Assembly (NCBI GenBank): GCA_037179385.1
Contig: CM074181.1
Coordinates: 52,090,297 to 52,154,296 of the forward strand
Length of the DNA stretch: 64,000 bases
Direction of reading: 5' to 3'
Source: Holothuria scabra
Taxonomy: Eukaryota > Echinodermata > Holothuroidea > Aspidochirotida > Holothuriidae
In this document: positions 18,901 through 61,042 of the stretch, piece by piece
Layout: each line of letters starts with the position of its first letter
How positions within the stretch are numbered: position 1 is the first letter of the stretch
Program-made: the position numbers and the translations under genes
The notes under the pieces: generated by a model
Told to the model about the DNA's origin: nothing
The model's database searches: none
What the model saw: only the letters and a program-made list of their open reading frames with translations

Positions 18901-19918
18901 TAGAAAATCTTGTAAGCTAGATAAAGATAGGTTCAACAGTTTTTTTATCTCACCTGGTTTTTCATGCTTATACACCCAAACACCTTAGAAATTTGGCCTT
19001 TACGTTTGTTCAGTAATGATTCCTTCGGGTTGTACACATATTTTGGATCATTCAAAGTTTTAAGAGGGCAATAACTGAAATCTGTAGATTTCACTGAACA
19101 CAGGTCACTCTACATTAAACTGTCTCTTTGCCAGTGGAAGCAATGCATAGATTATACAGTATGTCTCTTTAATACTGCTGTGCTCTTTGGGGGTAACCTA
19201 ATCCTCATTCTATTATCACACCCCATTAATCACTTGCTTTCTGCTTAACTGCTGAATAAACACTGTTTTCTGTGTAGAGGTAGCAAACAGGACAAATGGT
19301 AGATTGCTTTAAAGTAATAGCAAGTTTTATTTGAGAGCAGGTAAAAATAAATTGTGAGAGAAATACAAGGGGTGTTTTTCTCTCTCTGACCACATTGTGT
19401 ATTGTTTATTGGTGATAATATCAAGTTTGATAACAAGCATAAATACATATGGAAATGAGGAAATGTTTTTGAAGGATCACCAAGTATTATAAAAGTTGAA
19501 TGTAAGTAAGGCCACAAAAATTTAATCATTGATTTCATGTAATATTGGTACTAAAATACCCCTTGTGAAGATGTTACAAACATTGAGTATGAGCTTTTGC
19601 TTAGCTCTATTTTGGAGACTGGCTGTACATTCTTATAATATCCAGCAAGGAACCACAGTGCCCATTGGGCTCTTGTTCATTTGTGTAGCAACTTGGCCTG
19701 TTTGTGTAGCAAATTGCGATGCAATACTGGATAGATTATTCCCTTGTCATGATATGCACACTGGCTTTTTTGCTTTTTTCAGTCTCTGGAATAAAACTTT
19801 CAATTAATAAGAGCTCTCTATTTTACAGCATAGGTGTAACTGATACATGATCAGCAAACTTTCCCTTTTGTTCTTATTCTCAAATTTTCTTTTTGAATTC
19901 ATCTCTTCTCACCGACAG

Positions 19919-20050
19919 GCACCAGAGGTAATTCGAATGCGAGACCCCAACCCTTACTCATTCCAGTCAGATGTGTTTGCATTTGGTATTGTACTCTATG
20001 AACTGATGACTGGATCTCTTCCATACTCAAACATTAGCAACAAAGATCAG
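19919..20050 (+). CDS. Raf: RAF kinase exon: APE motif and helix F
   Basis: Encodes [20 protein letters not shown] followed by [20 protein letters not shown] and NKDQ. APE closes the activation segment. SDVFAFG holds the helix-F aspartate. It is 132 nt and phase 0 at both ends, as in vertebrate BRAF exon 16. Acceptor tctcaccgacag, donor CAG/GTAAAA. Confidence 0.97.
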
Positions 20051-20911
20051 GTAAAAGGAAATGTAATAGCTGGGCTAAGAATTAGCTTGAAAAAGGGCCC
20101 AGCCATAATGAAAAATTTGACTGTCAATCTGCATTGTGTCATGGGATTTTTCTGGGAGGGCACTACGTCCATCAGTAAAAGGCCATGTAGCCATGGCTAA
20201 TAGTGCTGTGGGTTATTTTTAGCCTTGTCATAGTTCCATTAGTCACATCATGATTGTTTTCACTGCTGCCATCATAATTATATAAAATATTTACATTTTG
20301 CACAGATTTCCAAAATGAACTCAATGCCAAATGCAAGGCTCGTATGAAACAAAAGAAAGGTGCAAATGCAGACAAAGTACATAGTATCAATTAATTGAAG
20401 TCCTGGTTTGGCTGGAACTTTCCTTTGTTATTCTCTCTCCCATCCCAGTAGAGGAGGGATACCTAACGGACTCGGATTCGTAGGGTGGCAGGAATTGTCT
20501 CCACTGAAAGATTCTGCTAACATTATATACATGAACATAAGTGCAGGAAATTACACATTACACATTTACATTAAAAGGGTACATCTTGATGTTTTCTGAC
20601 ATGTTGACTGGGGCCAGGATTCTTAATGACAGTTTTTATGCGGTAGGATACCTTCATGCAGACGGTTTCCTTAATAAATGTAGTGGCTCCTTGGAATATC
20701 CCAAAAGTGATTGAAATATCTGCCCCCAGGCTTCAAACAACCCTAAAGCTGTGCCTTTATGGCCTATAGTTCAGAAATTTCTTTGAAGGACCATGCTTGA
20801 GATGATTTCTTTACAGATTAGTTTAACTCATGTAACTTGGTATGTGTAATACTTGAGGTGGTATATAGAGACCCTCCAAAAAAACCTCACATGTGCTGTT
20901 TTCCCCCACAG

Positions 20912-42838: not shown

Positions 42839-43000
42839 TGTTATGCAAGGGTATCTCATGTTACACATCCGGAGAAACCACGTGTATGAGCTGGTGAAAT
42901 AAAAGCAGTTGGAAATAGGCTGCCCAAGGAACTACATACTAAGTTGTCTTTCTCGTTATTCTTCCTAACCTTCGAGTCAATACTCTTTTAGGACATAACA
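42839..43000 (+). repeat. 5' LTR of a Ty3/Gypsy element
   Basis: 162 bp starting TGTTATG and ending CATAACA, a perfect 7-bp terminal inverted repeat with the usual TG...CA ends. The same sequence forms the interrupted 3' LTR at 48850-48921 plus 51940-52028. The length is very short for an LTR, as in some Mag/SURL-type elements. Confidence 0.92.
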
Positions 43001-43014: not shown

Positions 43015-43081
43015 CTAAAATTGGTGACTGAAATCGTAAGCGCACCCTCCCGTGACTTTCAATCATTTCATAACATTTACT

Positions 43082-44365
43082 ATGGAAGTTTTCGGCAACG
43101 TGGGGCAATTTGACGGAAAGTCTGAAACTTTCGATGATTATGCCGACAGGTGCGACTCCTTTATACACTCCAACGCTATTTCTGCTGGGAAACAGACAAA
43201 TTTCTTTTTGGCCATGGTTGGACCGGACACGTACAAGTTATTAAAAACAGTTTGCAGCCCTGCCAAACCTAATATCAAATCTTATGAAGAGTTGAAAACC
43301 TTGCTTCGGAATCATTTCTCTCCAAAACCTATTGTTATAGCTGAACGCTTCAAATTTTGGACAGCAAACCAAGGTTCAATGGACTCTATGTCTAGTTTCA
43401 TTGTGCGGTTAAAAGACTTAGCCACTCATTGTGATTTCAACAATTTCCTCCAAGAAGCTCTGCGAGATAGATTGGTATCTGGTCTACATTCACGATTTTC
43501 AAAAACGCAGACTCAACTTCTCGCTATTCCAGATCTTACTTTTGAGAAAGCCAAAGCTAAATGTATAGCTGACGATATGGCTCATACTGCAACTGACGAG
43601 CATCAAAATGGCGCCTCCTCTTCTACTACCACTCACAGACTCACCCATCAAGGTCACCATCGTAGCTACCAGACGAGACAGTCTAAAAATAAGTCTTCGC
43701 AGCCTTGTAAATGTTGCGGAGGTAACGACCACCAGCATGAAGATTGTAAATTCCGAAACGCAACATGTCACTCTTGTGGTAAACAAGGGCACATTCAGCG
43801 AGTATGCCGTTCTAAGGGGAAGAAATCTACATCTACATATCATGGCTCTAGACGGGAAGGACATGGACGAAGCAACCCAAATTCTACATCCTCCCACACC
43901 CGTAATTTAGAGGAAATTTCCGACAATGAGGTTCACCATAGTGTCAATGAGCAGGCTTCGGAGCTGATTTCCACATCAGTGGACAGCGTGCGAACCGATG
44001 AGGACAGTTACAGCTTCGGGTTATTCAATATTTCTGGGGATACGGAGAGTGTCAGTAGAAAACCTTACCTGATTACGTTATCTATTGGAGAGAAACAAAC
44101 GCCCGTATCGATGGATTGGACACAGGAGCCTCTCGCTCCACTGACTATTTCCGAAAGTGTTTACAGAGCTCACCTGTCACAATCATACCCACTTAAGAAC
44201 TGTAACCTTACCCTGAGGGGATATTCAGGTGAGAAAATACCTGTTTTAGGTAGCATTTCTGTACCAGTTAAGTATAATAACAATTCGGAACACATGATGG
44301 AGTTGGTTGTAATTAAGGGCAATATGCCATGCCTATTTGGTAGAGATGGTCTGTCCAAAATCAAA
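43082..44365 (+). pseudogene. gag-protease region of the Gypsy element
   Basis: The Met at 43082 (MEVFGNVGQFDGK) is the likely start, because upstream in-frame codons lie in the leader. Residues about 1-165 form the capsid-like part. Two zinc knuckles follow, Cys209-Cys212-His217-Cys222 and Cys229-Cys232-His237-Cys242 (CX2CX4HX4C), which bind genomic RNA. The protease region starts near residue 325. Its active-site D-T-G-A-S (44119-44133) is encoded in a different frame from the surrounding open frame, implying two compensating indels. The frame ends in the inserted LINE sequence, shortly after GRDGLSKIK. Confidence 0.9.
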
Positions 44366-44870
44366 TCATCGAAGAAGATATAATCTTCTCCAGCCATATA
44401 CTAGGACAATGTTTGCACACTCTCACGTGAGAAGTAGCGGGGTATCTCTCTGGAACTCTCTTGACATTAGCATTAGAAATGCCCCTAACATTAATCTATT
44501 CAAGAAGTATTTAAAGAAATCTTTTTTATTATTGTACGTGGATAATTAATCTTACCTGGCTAAAAAATAAATAAATAACCAAATAAATAAATAATTTAAA
44601 ATCTGGCTAAAAGTAAGCATCAAACTAGCAGCAATTCTTTATATACCATCATGTAAATGCTATAGGAGTCATATCCGTATTTATATATATTCTAGTTGTG
44701 TAAGCAATTAAGAACATCTCAGTTATTAGGGCCAGACTAGAAAAGCTTGCAAGCTTCATCTGGTTCCTTTTTTCTACTGTCTTCATACTCACGTTTCTTG
44801 TAAATATCATTACGTGTTGTATCATAATAATAATGATAATGACTGTACGTTTGTATGTAGTAAAGTTGAA

Positions 44871-44905
<35 letters not shown>

Positions 44906-44906
44906 A
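44366..44906 (+). mobile_element. 5'-truncated LINE 3' end inserted between protease and RT
   Basis: Starts inside a LINE ORF2 C-terminus (RTMFAHSHVRSSGVSLWNSL, then INLFKKYLKKSF and stop at 44547-44549), followed by about 350 bp of AT-rich 3' UTR and a (CAA)n tail ending at 44906. Host reading resumes at 44907 with LNWESIF, exactly where the Gypsy frame broke off after LSKIK. A short CAAA is present at both edges, compatible with a target duplication. Confidence 0.85.
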
Positions 44907-45645
44907 CTTAATTGGGAATCCATATTTTTGACCTCTGTTTCAAAGTTACCAGGTCTAGATAAAATTTTGAGGGAAAATGAGGTGTTGTTTACGTCAGAGG
45001 GGTCTGGTATTAATGGGTTTTCAGCAAGTTTGAAAGTAAAACCTGGTAGCAAACCAATGTACCAGAAATATCGGCCTGTTCCCTACAAAATGGTGTCCCA
45101 AGTTGAAAGGGAGTATGAGAAATTGATCGGGGCTGGTGTTCTCACACGTATAGATTACTTCGACTGGGCATCGCCAGTAGTAAATGTCTAAAAGGATAAC
45201 GGGGCCATTAGAGTGTGTGGCGACTATAAGGCCGTCAACGAGTGTATTGAAGATGACGGTTACAAGCTTCCCTATACTCAAGACTTACTTGCCAAGTTAG
45301 CACAAACTGGAAGTAGGCCTAAAGTATTCTCTGTGATTGATCTTTCAGGGGCATTTAATCAGTTGACCCTCGACGAGGAATCTAGCAAAATCTTAGTCAT
45401 GAATTCCCACAAAGAGTTATTAGCCCCCAAGCGATTATGTTATGGGGTAAAAACTGCCCCGCCCTTTTTCAGGCCACGATGGACAAACTTCTAGCTGGCG
45501 TAGACCAAGTATTTTGCTACATCGACGATATTCTTATCGCTACAAAGTCAAATGAGGATCATATTAAGGTCTTAGATCAAGTATTTCAAAGATTGCGAAA
45601 ACATAATGTACGATTGAACGCAGAGAAGTGTAAATTTTCAAGTCT
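44907..45645 (+). pseudogene. Gypsy reverse transcriptase, broken
   Basis: Recognisable RT blocks: RPVPYKMVSQVEREYEKLIG, DWASPVVNV, VFSVIDLSGAFNQL (first catalytic Asp) and the YIDD box at 45518-45529. Damage: an in-frame TAA at 45189-45191, a frameshift near 45465-45475 (between YGVKTAP and the next block), and another near 45645. RT copies the element RNA into DNA; this copy is inactive. Confidence 0.92.
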
Positions 45646-46570
45646 TCAATAACGTATTTGGGACATGAACTAAGTGCAAAAGGGATCAGCCCTTTGCAAG
45701 ACAAAGTTGGGGATATTCGCAGGGCACGTCGCCCAACTAATGTGTCGGAACTTAAGTCTTTCCTGGGGATGTTGAATTATTACGGTTAATTTATTGACAA
45801 TTTGTCTTCTAAGATGTAACTATTGTATGCACTATTACGCCATGACTCTAACTGGGTTTGGAGCTCAGCACGTGAAAAAGCCTTCCAAGAGGCAAAACAA
45901 ATCCTAGCAAGTGAGCAAGTACTTGCACACTTTGATCCTTCTCAAACTATTGTGTTAAGTGTAGATGCAAGCCCTTACGGGCTCGGTGCGGTATTAAGCC
46001 ACAGCTTTGCAAATGGGTCAGAACGACCGATTGCCTACGCCTCTAGGACACTTAGTAAGTCAGAGAAAAATTATGCCCAAATCGAGAAGGAGGCCTTGGC
46101 GATAATATTTGGGATTAAGAAATTCCACTTGTACCTGTATGGTAACCATTTTGTATTGATTACAGATCATCAACCTTTAACTAGAATTTTCGGCCCCAAA
46201 TCTGGTATTCCAGCACTGGCGGCGGCTAGAATGCAGAGATGGGCTGTACTACTTTCAGCATATCAGTACACAATTGAACATAGGCCATCAGCGCAAAATG
46301 CAAACGCGGGTTTGTTGAGTAGGCTTCCCGTGGGTGACCCATGTAGTGGGGACCCCGAAGAACATTTTGTCTTTGCAATTGGAGTGGACGATGTACCTAT
46401 TACAGCGTCCGAAATTGCAACAGCCACAAGCCGCGACACAGTTTTGCCTAAAGTGTATGACTTAACACTCAATGAATGGCCTATTCACACGGATAATACA
46501 AATTTAAAGCCATTCTTAAGACGAGTAGATGAGCTGTCGCTAGAGGACGGTTGTGTACTTTGGGGAAGGA
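45646..46570 (+). pseudogene. Gypsy RT connection and RNase H, broken
   Basis: After TYLGHELSAKGISPLQDK and ELKSFLGMLNYY, stops lie at 45787-45789 and 45817-45819. From 45823 an open stretch encodes the RNase H: LSVDASPYGLGAVLSH, AQIEKEALAIIFGIKKFHLY, ITDHQPL, and ends with a chromosomal-type linker. The metal-binding D, E and D positions are all visible. A frameshift near 46570 separates it from integrase. Confidence 0.9.
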
Positions 46571-47530
46571 GGGTATAGTCATTCCCGGTAAGCTGCAAGA
46601 CTTCCTGCTGGAAGAGCTTCACGAGGGACACCCAGGCATGAGTAGAATGAAAGCCATCGCGTGGTCTCATGTCTGGTGGCCAGGAATTGACAAGGACATA
46701 GAGGAGAAAGTACGCAAGTGCGCGCAGTGTACCCAGGTGCAGAGAGCTCCGAAGCCGGAGCCACTGTTGTTATGGCCATGGGCCACTCAGCCTTGGCAAA
46801 GAATTCATATTGACTACCTAGAAACCAAAGGTCAACATTTTCTGCTTGTAGTGGACAGTTATTCGAAGTGGTTAGAAGTATTTCCTATGCACAGCACCAC
46901 TAGCTTAGCCACCATAAATGCATTGAGATCATTGTTTGCCCGTTACGGCCTACCAATTCAATTAGTCAGTGACAATGGCCCTCAGTTCACATCTGATGAA
47001 TTTAGGGCATTTCTTAAGTCAAACGACGTGGAACACACGTTAGCCCCACCCTATCATCCTGCAAGTAACGGTCTGGCGGAACGCAATGTTCAGACATTTA
47101 AGAATGAATTCACTAAATCCAATGCAAAGGATTTATCCCACAAAGTTGCTAGTGTATTGTTTTCCTTAAGAAACACCCCAAACTCCACAACAGGAAAAAC
47201 TCCAGCCGAGTTGTTTTCAATCGCTACCCCCGAACTAGGCTCTCTTTAGTGAAACCTTGCTTACAGAGGAAGGTGGACAGGAGACAATCAGCCACTAAGC
47301 AACACAAGGATAGTAAGAACCCCAAGGTGAGAAAGTTTGATCTTTTTCAACCGGTTCGGGTACGAAATAAAAAGGGGGGTAGGGAAAAATGGATCCCAGG
47401 GACAATTATCTCGATCAAGGGTCTACGTACATATATAGTTAGGATTCCAGGGAACAATCGTAGGTTTGTCCATTCAGATCATCTCATACCGGATGACACA
47501 GGTAGTTTCTCAGAGAACCTAAAAAGATAA
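46571..47530 (+). pseudogene. Gypsy integrase, broken near the C-terminus
   Basis: The zinc-binding HHCC module (HEGHPGMSRMK ... CAQCTQ) is followed by the DDE core: HIDYLETKGQHFLLVVD, LVSDNGPQFTSDEF and PYHPASNGLAERNVQTFK, with D, D and E visible. A TAG at 47247-47249 and a frameshift separate the C-terminal module, which has a GPY/F-like RVRNKK...WIPGTIISIKG pattern and ends at 47528-47530. No chromodomain is evident. Confidence 0.92.
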
Positions 47531-48991: not shown

Positions 48992-49507
48992 TTAGTCGTC
49001 CCGTCTGAGGATCCTCAAGGCTGCGCTCTTGAATTGCTTGGGGTCCTCGAGATCTATAATGTTCTGGGGGAGTAGGTTCCAGTCTCTGACGGTCCGAGGA
49101 AAGAAACTGTATTTGTAGCAGTCCTTATTGGTTGGTATATTTGTAAAGCTATTAGAATGGTGATGCCTGGAGGGCCGCCGGACCGGTTGTAGGTTGTTGA
49201 TTGGCAAGGCTAGGAGGCCCAATCTGGCTTTGTGAAGAATTGCTAGCCTGTTGGCAGTACGCCTGTTTTTGAGACTATCCCACCCTAGGTCATTTAGCAT
49301 TTCAGTCACACTACTATGGGGGGGAATAGTCATTATAAACAAACCTAGCAGCCCTACGTTGAATTTGCTCAACCTTATTGGATAGGGAAGTGGTGTAGAG
49401 ATCCCAAACAGAAGATGAATACTCCAATAAATGCCTAACAAGTGTGAGATAGGCATTAGCTTTGACACTCTAGGGCAGGAGTATAAATTTCTTTTAATAA
49501 AAGCCAA
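48992..49507 (-). pseudogene. CR1-like ORF2 C-terminal domain
   Basis: 171 codons with RRTANRLAILHKARLGLLAL and the terminal FFPRTVRDWNLLPQNI typical of CR1/L2-group ORF2, ending ILRRDD and stop. Out of frame with the RT segment. Confidence 0.88.
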
Positions 49508-49631
49508 AGACCTATTTGCCGACGAAGTGATACGATTAATATGTCTATTCCAGGTAAGGGTATTAGAGATGTCAACTCCCAGATAAGTGTGGCAATCGGC
49601 AGACTCCAGGGTATCGTTATCTAGAGTATAA

Positions 49632-50285
49632 TTAAAAAAACTTGGGTTTTCTTGAGTGAGTTATCCTCATAGAAAAGCACTTCTTGGTATTAAAGTGCAT
49701 TTGCCATTTATTTTGCCACTCAGAGAGGGTGTTTAGATCATTTTGGAGTTGAACCTGGTCAAGATTATTCTTTATCTGTCTATAAATTACACAGTCGTCA
49801 GCAAAAAGTCTTACTTCAGAAGAGATATTATCGGGCAGGTCATTAATATAAACTAAAAACAACAGGGGACCCAAGACTGTACCTTGGGGAACACCAGAGA
49901 TAACGTCCACCCAATCAGAAAAATCACCACTCACTGCGACTCTCTGCTTCCGGGACTTAAGAAAATTAGCAATCCAGTTAAGGGTGTTGCCTCTAATACC
50001 ATAGTTTTGTAATTTACAAAGCAGACGGTTATGAGGAACCGTATCAAAAGCCTTAGAAAAATCCATGATAATCATGTCAGTCTGGGATCTAAGATCTAGA
50101 GACTGCACTAGGTCATTGGTTGTTAAGATCAATTGAGATTCACAAGAATGGCGTTGTCTGAAGCCATGCTGCCTGTTCGTGATAACTGAGTGGTTATCAA
50201 AGTGATGCATAATATGAGAATGTATAATGTGTTCCAGGACCTTGCAACAAATCGAGGTAAGAGAGACCGGCCTATAGTTTGAGGC
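49632..50285 (-). pseudogene. CR1-like reverse transcriptase core
   Basis: The frame opens at about 50280 with SNYRPVSLTSICCKVLEHII and continues through HGFRQRHSCESQL, MDFSKAFDTVPH, ISGVPQGTVLGPLLFLVYIN and the catalytic FADDCVIY. All core RT motifs are intact in this segment; it is frameshifted from the endonuclease upstream and the C-terminus downstream. Confidence 0.9.
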
Positions 50286-51934
50286 TAGGGAACGGTCACC
50301 TTTTTAAAGATAGGACTAACATTGGCACATAACCAAGAGGAGGTAAATGACCAGTGTCCAGTGATTTTTGAAAAAATGGAGCAGAGGGCAGGAGCAACCT
50401 CCTCAGCGGCCAATTTCAGAACATGAGCCGGTATACCGTCAGGACCTGAAGCTTTGTTTGGGTTCAACTCCTTGAGCAACTTCACAACACCATCTAAGGA
50501 TATCTCAATATCAGACATGGTGGGTATGGTGTTCGCTTCAACTGGAGGTAAGGTGACATTCTCACGGGTGAAAACCTTTTGGAACTGCTCATTTAAGATG
50601 TTAGCCTTCTGCATGTTGTCCGAGACCAATATCCCATCAGATTTCAGGGAAGGGATACCAACACTATCACATCTAAGGTTTTTAATAAAGGACCAGAAAC
50701 GTTTAGGTGAATCAGTACAAACTGTGTTGACATAATTTCTGTAAGCGGCTCTTGTTGTTTTGTGAGTCGCTTTACGTTGGGTTTTGAAGTTTTGTTTCCT
50801 ATTTAATAGTCGTTTAATAGTCTTATCAATCCAGGGGGTTTGGTTCCTCTTTCTAACAACCCGAGCTGGAACATAGACATCCATTACCTCTTTGGTTTTG
50901 TTCTCAAGGGCAGAGTACATGACCTGCACAGAGCACTCACGTTTAACCAGGTCAGAGCTGAACTTACTAAGCTCTGCCTTGATTCCACTGACATCAGCTT
51001 TGTGAAAGCTATACACTTTCCTAGGCTTTTGTTTAGTTGTTTTAGGCCTAGTGCTTATCATAATCAAAGGGATACCATCATGGTCAGATATGCCAGGGAT
51101 CAGGGCAGACCTATCCACTAGAGTAGGATTAGATGTCAAGAAAATATCCAAGATGTTGTTAACTCTAGTAGGCTCACTTACCATTTGGTCAAGACCAAAA
51201 TCATTGCATATGTCAAGCATACATTTGGATAAAGCAGGATACTGTGAGCCTGGTTGGACAGACCTAGTGAACCAATCAACATCAGGTAGATTAAAGTCCC
51301 CTGCAAGATAGATCTGTCCATTCTTATTCTTACTGGCCTTAACGAGAGAAGCCCGAAGCTGGTCAAGGTAGTCTGTTGAGTTGCCATATTTATGTGAGCG
51401 GTAAAAAGACCCTATAAGTATTTGTTTGGCACCTTGGATTTCGAGAGAAACCCAGACTACCTCACAATCCGAATCAAGGTCAGGTCTATAGGTAGCAAGG
51501 AGGTCTTCTTTAGTGGCGATAAGGACGCCCCCTTTAGACTGACCATAATTTCTGTCTTTTCTAAAAACAGTATAATTACCAGGAAACAATTCATTACTGG
51601 TGACAGAGCTATTTAAGTGAGTTTCAGTACCTATAATCACGTCAGGGTTATTTTCATCAATGCAAGCATTTAAGTCTGCAACCTTATTACGAATGCCTTG
51701 AAAATTAATAACAAGGACTTTTAAACTATTCCTAATCGGTTTAGAATTGGGTCTACGTTCAGGTCGAAGTTTATTGGTGTCTGGGGAGGACGACAACAGA
51801 GGCGAAGTTGGGGGGTCGCTGGTAATACTGTGAGCACCAGGAGAAAGACAGGCAAAACTATTCGATAATTCAGGGTCAGAATTGCTAAAGAGTGAACTTG
51901 AAAAGTTGGGAATACCACATTGGCAGCAAATCCA
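50285..51934 (-). pseudogene. CR1-like endonuclease and RT N-terminus
   Basis: About 549 codons. After ICCQCGIPNFSSSLF (end of a PHD/zinc-like module) come APE-endonuclease motifs: NFQGIRNK, IIGTETHLN (catalytic Glu), SFYRS, GDFNLPDVDW and SDHDGIPLIM (catalytic His). RT entry follows with NPNKASGPDGIPAHVLK. The seven most upstream codons of the open frame lie in the Gypsy LTR, so the natural ORF2 start is missing. Confidence 0.92.
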
Positions 51935-51939
51935 AGTTC

Positions 51940-52028
51940 GAAATAGGCTGCCCAAGGAACCACATACAAAGTTGTCTTTCTCGTTATTCTTCCTAACCTC
52001 CGAGTCAATACTCTTTTAGGACATAACA
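51940..52028 (+). repeat. 3' LTR, right part
   Basis: AAATAGGCTGCCCAAGGAAC...GGACATAACA matches the last part of the 5' LTR with few changes and ends in the same CATAACA. Confidence 0.92.
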
Positions 52029-55804: not shown

Positions 55805-56481
55805 AGGAATTATTATTCATCGATAGCATGGAAATCACAACATTTTCAGAAAATGGAACACGTAGAAAAAGAAAGAAAATATAGTACCATTTTGCATATA
55901 AGCCCCTTGAAACAGCGAGCCATTTTATCCCCCCCCCCCGACATTGGTCAAGAATCTGGACGATTAGTAGACTTTGCTCCTCCCTACACCCCCCAAAATT
56001 GACTACCCCCTGTGTATTTTCTAATACATTTCTGATCACTTTCCTAATTTATCTGAATTGAACATTTTATTGCAAACGAAAGCTCAAAATATCGACTGGT
56101 AAGATTCTTCCTGTATATAGGACAATGCAATTTCCTGCTATCTAATGGGTGGCAATTTTTCAATTGTGTCTGTAGGCTCTGCGTCAACTAGTGGTGGCGC
56201 TCCTCCTAAAACTGTAAAAGGTAATTTTGCTCAAATTACATTTTTCGTCCAAAAACCTTTCTTGTTACCTCAACTGAAAATGCTCCCTTACCCCTTGGAT
56301 CTAGTACAAATTTAATGTCTCTAGTATACTTGGCCAACCCCTCTACTATTTCTGTTTCACTCCTATACGTATGAAACTTTTTTCAGATCACACCCATACG
56401 ACCTTAGTAGAACCCAATAACGACCACCATGCAGTTAACTGTACTTAATTTTTTAAAAAAGTTTCTTTCTTTTGAATACAG

Positions 56482-56566: not shown

Positions 56567-58168
56567 ATGAAAGTTCCGATGCCACTTAGTTCATCCTTTC
56601 TTATGAAAAATATTTTCTTTCTGACGACTGTTTTCAACATCGTTGTCACCAGTCAAAGACCGGGTTGTACCAAGGAGGTGTACATCACCAGTGACGTCAG
56701 TTTCACGTTTGCCAATAACACCACTCTAGATCTAACTACCAATATAGATCTCATGGGCGAAATTATGCTCTTTGACAAAATTTGCTTCTATGTGAAACCT
56801 GAGTTGCATGAGGATATTTATCAAACTTACGATGTGGAGATCGATGGCAACTACGAGGAGTCATATCCCCTCGTTTACGAGTTGAATCTGATCGATGTGA
56901 CCCGGATCTACCCCCTGTATGATCAGTTCACTTTTGTAAAACCCTCTTTATCATTTGAATGCATTTGTGACTGCCCTGGTGGAGATGAACACTGTCCAGA
57001 AGATACCGATCGGTGTGTCGATAAGCCAGAACCAATGTGCGTCACCGTAAGCGTGGACACCGAGGCAACAGGTTGCCCTTTGTCACTTTTTTCAGGTTCT
57101 ACAACCACCTGTTGCTCTGTGACAATCTCTCAATCAGGTGACGATAACCAATACATAGCCTACCGTCTAGCAGATTCTGAAACTTCATTTACATTTACAT
57201 TGTATGCTTTCTACACAAGCGACGAAACGGTTTTTGAGCCTCCTCGACAAATGACGGCGATGCTAATATCCGACGGTACCATTGATGACAAGGATGAACC
57301 AGAAATAGCCATCACAGCAAATAAATTGGACGCTCTAGATATTCCGACATCGAACCTGTATTCGAATGTTAAAAGTGGTCAAGTCATGTCGGGTGTTGAA
57401 GTGAATGCAATCGACGAATGGGATTTTCACAAACTTGGTTGGTTTAGAGTATCAGACTCGACGGTTACAGTTGAAGATCCGCCTAGACTTGAAGATGTCG
57501 TTGACATTAATGTAACCAACTGTCTGGTGGACGAGTATTCAGCCACAGCCAATGTCAGTTTCGATGGGAATGACGTAAAAGGTTGGGGAAGTCCCCTCAC
57601 TTATTTATCAAATGGTCACGTCCTTTTAGCATTCTACGATCCAGAAGGAATGTCTGCAGAAATTCATTATCAAATATCACCCCGAATGACTTTTAAACTA
57701 CCCTTGAATATACAAACTGAATCTTTCTATCAAGTTGGTGAGTCGAACTTTGAAAATTTTAGAGTAGAACCCTCCGATGTTGGTTCTAAAGTAATTATAA
57801 AATTTACTGGAACCTCTGGCATCATATCAGGCGATGTTCAGTCAGGGAATGATACTGACGGATACAGCATCCTAGATGACGTCCATTTTATTGTACCAAC
57901 TTCGTCTGATGAAATCAGCGTCACTTTGGCGATGTTATCAACAAATGAGACAATTACGAGAGTATGTCTTCACCATATATCAAGTCCTAGTGACATTATT
58001 TGTAATAATGTTGGGGAGAGTACGGACAGTTTTCAAGGGAAGGGGAAGAATGCTAAATGGTATATCATTGCCTTTGTGCTTGTCATTGTCATTGTCATTG
58101 TGATACTCTTCCTTTTCCTCAGAGGAAGAGAGATGCTCCGAACATCGCCGCAGACAAACATAATCTAG
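56567..58168 (+). CDS. EFF-1/AFF-1-like (FF family) type I membrane glycoprotein, candidate class II cell-cell fusogen
   Basis: 533 codons, one exon, no disruption. Residues 1-29 form a signal peptide (MKNIFFLTTVFNIVVTS is the hydrophobic part; Met14 is a possible alternative start). The ectodomain (30-497) has 14 cysteines (34, 73, 132, 134, 136, 143, 150, 158, 170, 182, 183, 319, 467, 479) and six N-glycosylation sequons (50, 51, 315, 329, 428, 460). One membrane segment is at 498-518, followed by a 15-residue tail. The blocks RIYPLYDQFTF + CICDCPGGDEHC, TTTCCSVTI and DFHKLGWFR match the pattern I recall for nematode EFF-1/AFF-1, which fuse cells by acting on both membranes. The cysteine-dense part would be at the junction of domains I/II. 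The intronless CDS could reflect retrocopy origin. Alternative: an unrelated adhesion ectodomain. Confidence 0.68.
   Translation: MKVPMPLSSSFLMKNIFFLTTVFNIVVTSQRPGCTKEVYITSDVSFTFANNTTLDLTTNIDLMGEIMLFDKICFYVKPELHEDIYQTYDVEIDGNYEESYPLVYELNLIDVTRIYPLYDQFTFVKPSLSFECICDCPGGDEHCPEDTDRCVDKPEPMCVTVSVDTEATGCPLSLFSGSTTTCCSVTISQSGDDNQYIAYRLADSETSFTFTLYAFYTSDETVFEPPRQMTAMLISDGTIDDKDEPEIAITANKLDALDIPTSNLYSNVKSGQVMSGVEVNAIDEWDFHKLGWFRVSDSTVTVEDPPRLEDVVDINVTNCLVDEYSATANVSFDGNDVKGWGSPLTYLSNGHVLLAFYDPEGMSAEIHYQISPRMTFKLPLNIQTESFYQVGESNFENFRVEPSDVGSKVIIKFTGTSGIISGDVQSGNDTDGYSILDDVHFIVPTSSDEISVTLAMLSTNETITRVCLHHISSPSDIICNNVGESTDSFQGKGKNAKWYIIAFVLVIVIVIVILFLFLRGREMLRTSPQTNII
58082..58099 (+). repeat. hexanucleotide repeat coding the membrane segment
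   Basis: Three exact GTCATT units encode alternating Val-Ile in the transmembrane helix of the FF-like protein. In-frame gain or loss of units would change helix length by two residues. Confidence 0.8.
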
Positions 58169-58690
58169 CTTAAACTCAGGGTCGGCGTCAAGGGGTGGCA
58201 AGGGACGATAGCCCCCTATATTCGCAAGAAAACGTGATAAGAAATGAAAAAAGGGGGAAAAAAGAAGAGAAAAGGTGTTATCTGCTTATGCTGTGTCTCC
58301 TATCAAAATATCCTGGCGCAGCCCAACTGGCATTATTCGATATGACCCAACAGATTTGAGGTGATCGATTGCGTTCTGGAGCACTCATGCATTTTTTGTG
58401 TACTCTTGATTTTTCTTGTACTCATGACTTTGTATTCAAACTCGTATCCACAGATATATTGAAAATAAGGCAATGTGCTCCCGCTTAAAAAAATTTTGCC
58501 CTAGCTATTAGGACCTTGTCCTCGCATTTGTAGTTGGGTACTTTCGATTGTTGACATCTCAATCAGTCATAATACTATTCTGTGATCGTTAGTTAGAATG
58601 GTCAAATCTGGTAAACTTTAGTTAATTTTCATGCTTCCTGCCCGATAAACAAAGACACAGTCTCAATAAAGAAAATAAAAACTATTTTGT
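58169..58690 (+). other. probable 3' UTR of the FF-like gene
   Basis: Directly follows the TAG stop; ends near a canonical AATAAA. No other frame. Confidence 0.5.
58665..58670 (+). terminator. polyadenylation signal AATAAA for the FF-like gene
   Basis: First AATAAA downstream of the stop on the plus strand, about 500 bp into the putative 3' UTR, followed by A/T-rich DNA. Confidence 0.5.
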
Positions 58691-59960: not shown

Positions 59961-60587
59961 CTGTAGATCTAGCATTGCCCTATGTCTTATGTGGAATATA
60001 GCTTTAAAAAAATGTTTCAACATATTGGCATCAAAATTAAGAATAAATTAAGTGCAATGTTAGACTAATGTGCCGCGACGACGTAACAGATTTCTCATAA
60101 TGATATATCTTCAGAACAATTGCATTACTTTCAAAATTAGTATCTTCAGAACGCTACGTGCTATTAAACTGCGTTTTTTACATCCGGAAAGAGAAAAATT
60201 TTCTGTGTATGTTGAAGTCAATTGATTTTGTCTAGTGCAAATCCTTTTAAAGTCATTATTTTCTTTCTTTTTATTTTTTATTTTTCCATCATTTTTGTTT
60301 TGCTGTTAAAGTGTTCGATCACAAAAATGGCTATGCGGATATATTAAAAAGTTTAAAACACTACAAACTTCAACTTAGAAATTGTATTCGTAAGGATTCA
60401 ATTTACATGCACTATGTCATTCCTGTAAATAAAAATAGCTAAAGGAACATGATTAATCTTTGTTCTAAAGGAGGGATATCAGGGATTACACCAGTGGCGT
60501 AGCCAGGATGGAATTTTTTTTAGGGGGCCTAGGTAACAAGTGGGGGCGGGCTGGTACCTCCGAGGGTCAGGCACGGCAAGACTATCC

Positions 60588-61042
60588 AAGCGGAGCGCCA
60601 CCATCGGTTGGCGCGGAGCGTACAAGAAAATTTGGGGCTTTAAAACCCCTCCAGATGGCCGGAAACGGCACTTCCCATGTGTTTTAAGCTGGATGTACCC
60701 AGCCTTGAAATACGAATCTCATGTCTGCGATGTCTCAAATAATGAGAATAAAAAATCAATCTATGAAAAATGGTAATACATACACTTTTTAGGGACCTCA
60801 AAACTGGGCACTTCTGATCTGTGGCCTGGGGGATGAGACTAAAGGAACCGGTATCTCCCTTCCCCTTGGGAAAAATTGTAAATTTCAGAAGCACGTAGAT
60901 CGCAAATGCGGCAATATTTGAATCTAAGCGGAGCGCTACCATCAGTTGGCGCGGAGCGCACAAGAAAAATTTGGGCTTTAAAATCCCTCCAGATGGCCGG
61001 AAACGGCACTTCCCACGTGTTTTAAACTGGATGTACCCAGCC
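60588..61042 (+). repeat. internal direct repeat of the hAT element
   Basis: The 117-bp segment 60588-60704 recurs at 60926-61042 (period 338 bp) with about ten differences: 'aagcggagcg.caccatc', 'ggttggcgcggagcg', 'ccctccagatggccggaaac'. It contains a small inverted pair GCGCCACC/GGTTGGCGC. Confidence 0.85.

Follow-up and report, generated by a model that had tools for sequence, protein, structure and literature searches.

We analysed a 64,000-nucleotide stretch of contig CM074181.1 of the sea cucumber Holothuria scabra (positions 52,090,297 to 52,154,296; hereafter the window), which contains an intact gene, FF1, whose predicted product resembles the nematode cell-fusion proteins EFF-1 and AFF-1. 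The frame encodes 533 residues and lies exactly where a preliminary description, made from the letters alone, had placed it (Table 1). The short blocks quoted there are also present: RIYPLYDQFTF (residues 113-123), CICDC (132-136), TCC (181-183), and FHKLGWFR (287-294). The topology described at the same time stood in most parts. FF1 has a cysteine-rich block, a single strong membrane segment, which is C-terminal (KD19 hydropathy, with the usual cut-off of >1.6), and a short tail. Near the N-terminus, a hydrophobic stretch (about residues 13-30) falls below the same cut-off, and is plausibly a signal peptide when judged by eye.

Table 1. Features of FF1, of two of its paralogs, and of the surrounding DNA. 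Positions are those of the window, except for FF3 and FF4, which are given with their locus identifiers.
Feature	Position	Strand	Remarks
FF1 complete coding sequence, predicted EFF-AFF family protein	56567..58168	+	single open frame, 533 residues and stop, no coding intron
FF1 hydrophobic stretch near the N-terminus (residues 13-30), probable signal peptide	56603..56656	+	by-eye reading
FF1 cysteine-rich block CxCxC ... CC (residues 132-183)	56960..57115	+	of the 11 cysteine columns in common with the EFF-1A fragment, 8 are here
FF1 FHKLGWFR block (residues 287-294)	57425..57448	+	aligns with FDRLGWYR of EFF-1A
FF1 counterpart of EFF-1 domain III (about residues 391-486)	57737..58024	+	alignment transfer from the FF2 model
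FF1 short membrane-proximal stem	58025..58063	+	Cys479 to Trp498, 20 residues
FF1 transmembrane segment (residues 500-518)	58064..58120	+	KD19 3.86; followed by a 15-residue tail
Possible 5' untranslated region intron, acceptor-like AG	56480..56481	+	85 bases before the FF1 ATG; 11/15 pyrimidines in the preceding tract
AATAAA polyadenylation-type signal	58665..58670	+	motif only; about 500 bases past the FF1 stop
FF3	L003:1447-3180		carries the extra aromatic membrane-proximal stretch
FF4	L004:1462-3252		carries the extra aromatic membrane-proximal stretch
gag-pol retrotransposon, several open reading frames	43040-47249	+	RNase H and integrase over cut-off; gag, at 22.8 bits, slightly short of its cut-off (24.1)
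Element with endonuclease and reverse transcriptase, three overlapping frames	48992-52015	-	frame 48992-49660 matched no family
Raf kinase exon in open stretch	19844-20197	+	best match B-Raf, E 1.5e-21, residues 25-78

The Pfam profile EFF-AFF (PF14884) matches FF1 with an E-value of 4.4e-35 (121.6 bits, for a cut-off of 25) and aligns residues 69-492 with positions 4-432 of its 467, which bears out the EFF-1/AFF-1-like identity given in the preliminary description. It is the sole Pfam family found at E ≤ 0.001 in each of the nine sea cucumber proteins that we scanned, i.e., FF1, its three paralogs in the genome (FF2, FF3, and FF4), and five proteins of Holothuria leucospilota. When the solved structures were searched by sequence, EFF-1A was the sole molecule retrieved, in 4/4 rows each for the single protein (E ≤ 10) and for the profile (E ≤ 1), with E-values of 6.1e-11 for FF1 alone and 2.4e-15 for the profile. 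A profile-profile comparison with the 407-residue EFF-1A fragment gave a probability of 97.4 and an E-value of 1.2e-11. Eleven of the 12 cysteines of this fragment fall in columns that are all-cysteine across the five sea cucumber rows of the alignment (FF1-FF4 and HOLleu_05235), a match reached by 0 of 100000 random placements. Across all nine proteins, 10 columns are kept rather than 11, since one is occupied by a tyrosine in HOLleu_05232. These sequence comparisons support the membership of FF1 in the nematode-type Fusion Family (FF; EFF-1/AFF-1).

FF1 shares with Caenorhabditis elegans EFF-1 (PDB 4OJC, 4OJD, 4OJE, and 4CYL) the Pfam family, the cysteine pattern, the LGW block, and a single membrane segment near the C-terminus. 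It differs from EFF-1 (AFF-1 lies outside this comparison) in the lack of coding introns. The membrane segment and tail of EFF-1 span I562-I658 (PMC9259645), whereas the FF1 tail has 15 residues. HAP2/GCS1 and the viral class II fusion proteins (fusexins) are placed in the same fold superfamily as the FF proteins (PMC8784728), but have no sequence match to FF1, and the start of the FF cysteine block is poor in hydrophobic residues. At E ≤ 10, five families were listed for FF1, and HAP2-GCS1 was not one of them; most matches with E-values beyond about 0.1 are removed by the HMMER filters.

Searching the genome (1,192,178,128 bases in 31 contigs) with P0009 and with the Pfam EFF-AFF profile returned the same four clustered loci, all on one strand of contig C3 and starting at 52,146,863 (FF1), 52,182,192 (FF2), 52,379,253 (FF3), and 52,407,065 (FF4). 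All four reading frames are open, and nucleotide similarity among the copies was found nowhere but in the coding region. The profile had no match in any of 14 control genomes. A fifth match in the H. scabra genome, on contig C11 (24.7 bits, E 0.0039, five internal stops), reaches the cut-off only when joined with its neighbours and yields short frames only in a six-frame reading; we judged it to be a chance match. A 264-kb stretch that we examined contains FF1 and FF2 only, FF3 and FF4 being outside it, and we found no degraded FF copies there; its weak tblastn rows (best E 0.022, 73 residues, 27% identity) are at chance level. Upstream of the coding sequences, by-eye comparison revealed the acceptor-like site of FF1, with similar downstream sequence, also in FF2 (10/15 pyrimidines) and FF3 (8/15, the weakest), while a comparable site was not evident upstream of FF4. 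Given these three sites, the 5' untranslated region may be spliced, and an intron in that of FF1 is possible.

The FF1 frame is under purifying selection, as had been suggested from its undamaged state. The ratios of nonsynonymous to synonymous substitution rates (dN/dS, NG86) of the six pairs among FF1-FF4 range from 0.24 to 0.35 (bootstrap limits 0.15-0.44), and since dS is near saturation (0.95-1.56) they are read as 'well under 1'. The pairs of FF1 with its three paralogs give 0.24-0.31, those among the other copies 0.31-0.35. In none of 2000 neutral simulations did the FF1 frame stay open. The surroundings of the gene are repeat-rich, as one might expect if FF1 were a pseudogene in decay or a frame open by chance, but the 533 open codons, the simulations, and the strong profile match exclude this explanation for practical purposes.

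The five H. leucospilota proteins (HOLleu_05232, 05235, 05236, 05238, and one already annotated as 'Cell fusion protein aff-1') are homologous to FF1, with 48-59% identity by BLASTP (5/5 hits) over 90-99% of its length. The sequence had been ascribed to a probable deuterostome, rightly so: it is from a sea cucumber, and so are all five database relatives. Searches of the protein database (5339, 6300, and 6608 candidates) returned these same five proteins only; they did not recover EFF-1 itself, although the alignment used in the last of them held an EFF-1A fragment, and thus do not show absence from other animals. The UniRef name of HOLleu_05235 begins with 'Calx-beta domain-containing', which is probably a misleading automatic label, as Pfam shows EFF-AFF only at E ≤ 0.001. 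Two of the seven inner branches of the tree are well supported: one joins FF4 with HOLleu_05232 (95/99) and the other HOLleu_05236 with 05238 (100/100), which is a young pair without counterpart among the four H. scabra genes. The branch of FF1 is rather long (0.45; that of FF4 is longer, 0.51), and the tree supports no one-to-one pairing of FF1 with an H. leucospilota protein. The branch of the EFF-1A fragment (EFF1A_frag) measures 4.85 and the bootstrap had not settled; the tree was not used to decide between vertical and horizontal descent. The proteins also differ next to the membrane. An extra aromatic stretch (YLFPGQW-like) lies just before the membrane segment in FF3, FF4, HOLleu 'aff-1', and HOLleu_05232, and is missing from FF1, FF2, and the three other H. 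leucospilota proteins.

We consider it probable that FF1 functions as a gene of the EFF-1/AFF-1 type, one of four, with an EFF-1-like predicted action and a use in somatic syncytia. Its product would be a membrane glycoprotein of type I, in which a class II-like ectodomain of three domains is joined by a short stem to a single membrane segment and a brief tail. Following what is generally understood of EFF-1, FF1 would stand on the surface of both partner cells, its ectodomains would associate across the intercellular gap (bilateral fusion) and refold into trimeric hairpins, and the membranes would be zipped together without a hydrophobic fusion loop. Fusion by EFF-1 and AFF-1 requires both membranes to carry them (PMC9259645, PMC8784728), and EFF-1 has an acidic tip loop where viruses have a hydrophobic one (PMC4050280). 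In 9/9 sea cucumber proteins, the cysteine block opens with 27 residues of acidic character, only two to four of them hydrophobic, which would fit the EFF-1 mode if this block is the tip.

The comparison with the class II fold of EFF-1, put forward in the preliminary description, finds support for a single domain, in a paralog. The AlphaFold2 (AF2) model of FF1 has no usable part (mean pLDDT 34, pTM 0.28), and that of the FF2 ectodomain (mean pLDDT 43, pTM 0.31) is usable for the last ~95 residues only. This region, equivalent to domain III, has a pLDDT of 64-87 per block and matches EFF-1 406-506. The model thus supports a domain III fold common to EFF-1 and the paralog FF2, rather than FF1; domains I and II have no usable model.

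Several observations weigh against an EFF-1-like action of FF1. Its identity to the EFF-1A fragment is only about 21%. The class II-like domains I and II are proposed from sequence, the AF2 models being of low confidence, and the acidic block is tentatively placed as the domain II tip loop from the alignment, with no model behind it. Finally, the FF1 stem is unusually short: 20 residues separate the final cysteine of the ectodomain from the pre-membrane tryptophan, compared with 46-71 in the other eight proteins and 49-71 in those of H. leucospilota. The EFF-1 stem has 52 (E510-D561; PMC9259645). A stem too short for full closure of the hairpin could mean that FF1 kept the fold and lost fusion, becoming an adhesion molecule, or one that pairs with the three other copies or inhibits them. 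Its rather long branch and lack of a supported partner agree with such a change. However, the shared cysteines are retained in FF1, and the dN/dS of its pairs does not exceed that of the pairs formed by the other copies. We regard a non-fusing derivative as unlikely, with a small but real share of probability because of the short stem.

If FF1 is a fusogen, analogy points to somatic syncytia as the likeliest use, i.e., coelomocyte phagocytes fusing around foreign bodies or the skeleton-forming mesenchyme. Echinoderm phagocytes are cited as highly fusogenic on substrate in a study which itself observed no multinucleated cells (PMC9763293). Sea urchin phagocyte cultures are syncytia-like, and explicit proof of fusion is lacking according to PMC3629189, which argues that fusion is likely. 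Sea urchin skeletogenic cells fuse (PMC10874539). The FF genes could instead serve gamete fusion. Gametes are fused by HAP2, a related class II fusogen (PMC8784728), which we did not detect in the H. scabra genome; the same search was also silent in 14/14 control genomes, so that an absence of HAP2 from H. scabra is not shown. EFF-1 and AFF-1 act in somatic cell fusion (PMC9259645), and we find a role in gametes rather improbable. A more speculative idea, to which we give slightly less credit still, is that the Holothuria FF set forms a matching code, in which copies differing in the stem and membrane-proximal region would decide which cells fuse in phagocyte or mesenchyme syncytia, perhaps in connection with self-recognition.

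To our knowledge, no membrane fusogen has been named for the syncytia of echinoderm skeletogenic cells or phagocytes, and FF1 offers a concrete candidate for the agent of cell merging in echinoderms. Four intact and constrained genes, of a family known to act in nematode cell fusion, make the question of the echinoderm syncytium fusogen directly testable. FF proteins have been reported from nematodes, a few arthropods, a ctenophore, a chordate, and a protist (PMC4723337); the non-nematode ones, whose sequences are outside the present comparison, share with FF1 the reach of the family beyond nematodes. The open-licence literature yielded no paper dealing with echinoderm FF proteins, nor one pairing AFF-1 with echinoderms, and the main text of the Holothuria glaberrima genome preprint (PMC13228809) has no occurrence of fusogen or AFF-1. 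Our results add echinoderms to a family described as that of nematodes and a few scattered lineages, and these genes bear on the choice between an ancient origin with frequent loss and sideways transfer.

The gene had been described as lying 'amid decayed transposons', which is fair for its upstream side. The gag-pol retrotransposon found there is presumably of the Ty3 type, and the minus-strand element is one that we take to be LINE-like (long interspersed nuclear element). FF1 could in principle be the captured envelope protein of a virus or of a long terminal repeat retrotransposon. Yet no direct repeats of at least 60 bases bracket it in 38000-64000, the minus-strand element sits between the gag-pol element and FF1, and none of 83 stretches of viral contigs matching two holothurian-derived patterns encodes a relative, the last being a narrow test. 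These three observations make such an envelope very improbable; the family match of FF1 to EFF-AFF and the nucleotide similarity of the four copies, found in the coding region only, also speak against it. At 42850-43000, adjoining short copies seem to derive from two end regions of the minus-strand element. Downstream of FF1, at 60584-61042, a 121-base repeat occurs twice (93% alike, 338 bases from start to start). The Raf kinase exon, about 36 kb upstream of FF1, provides a synteny landmark.
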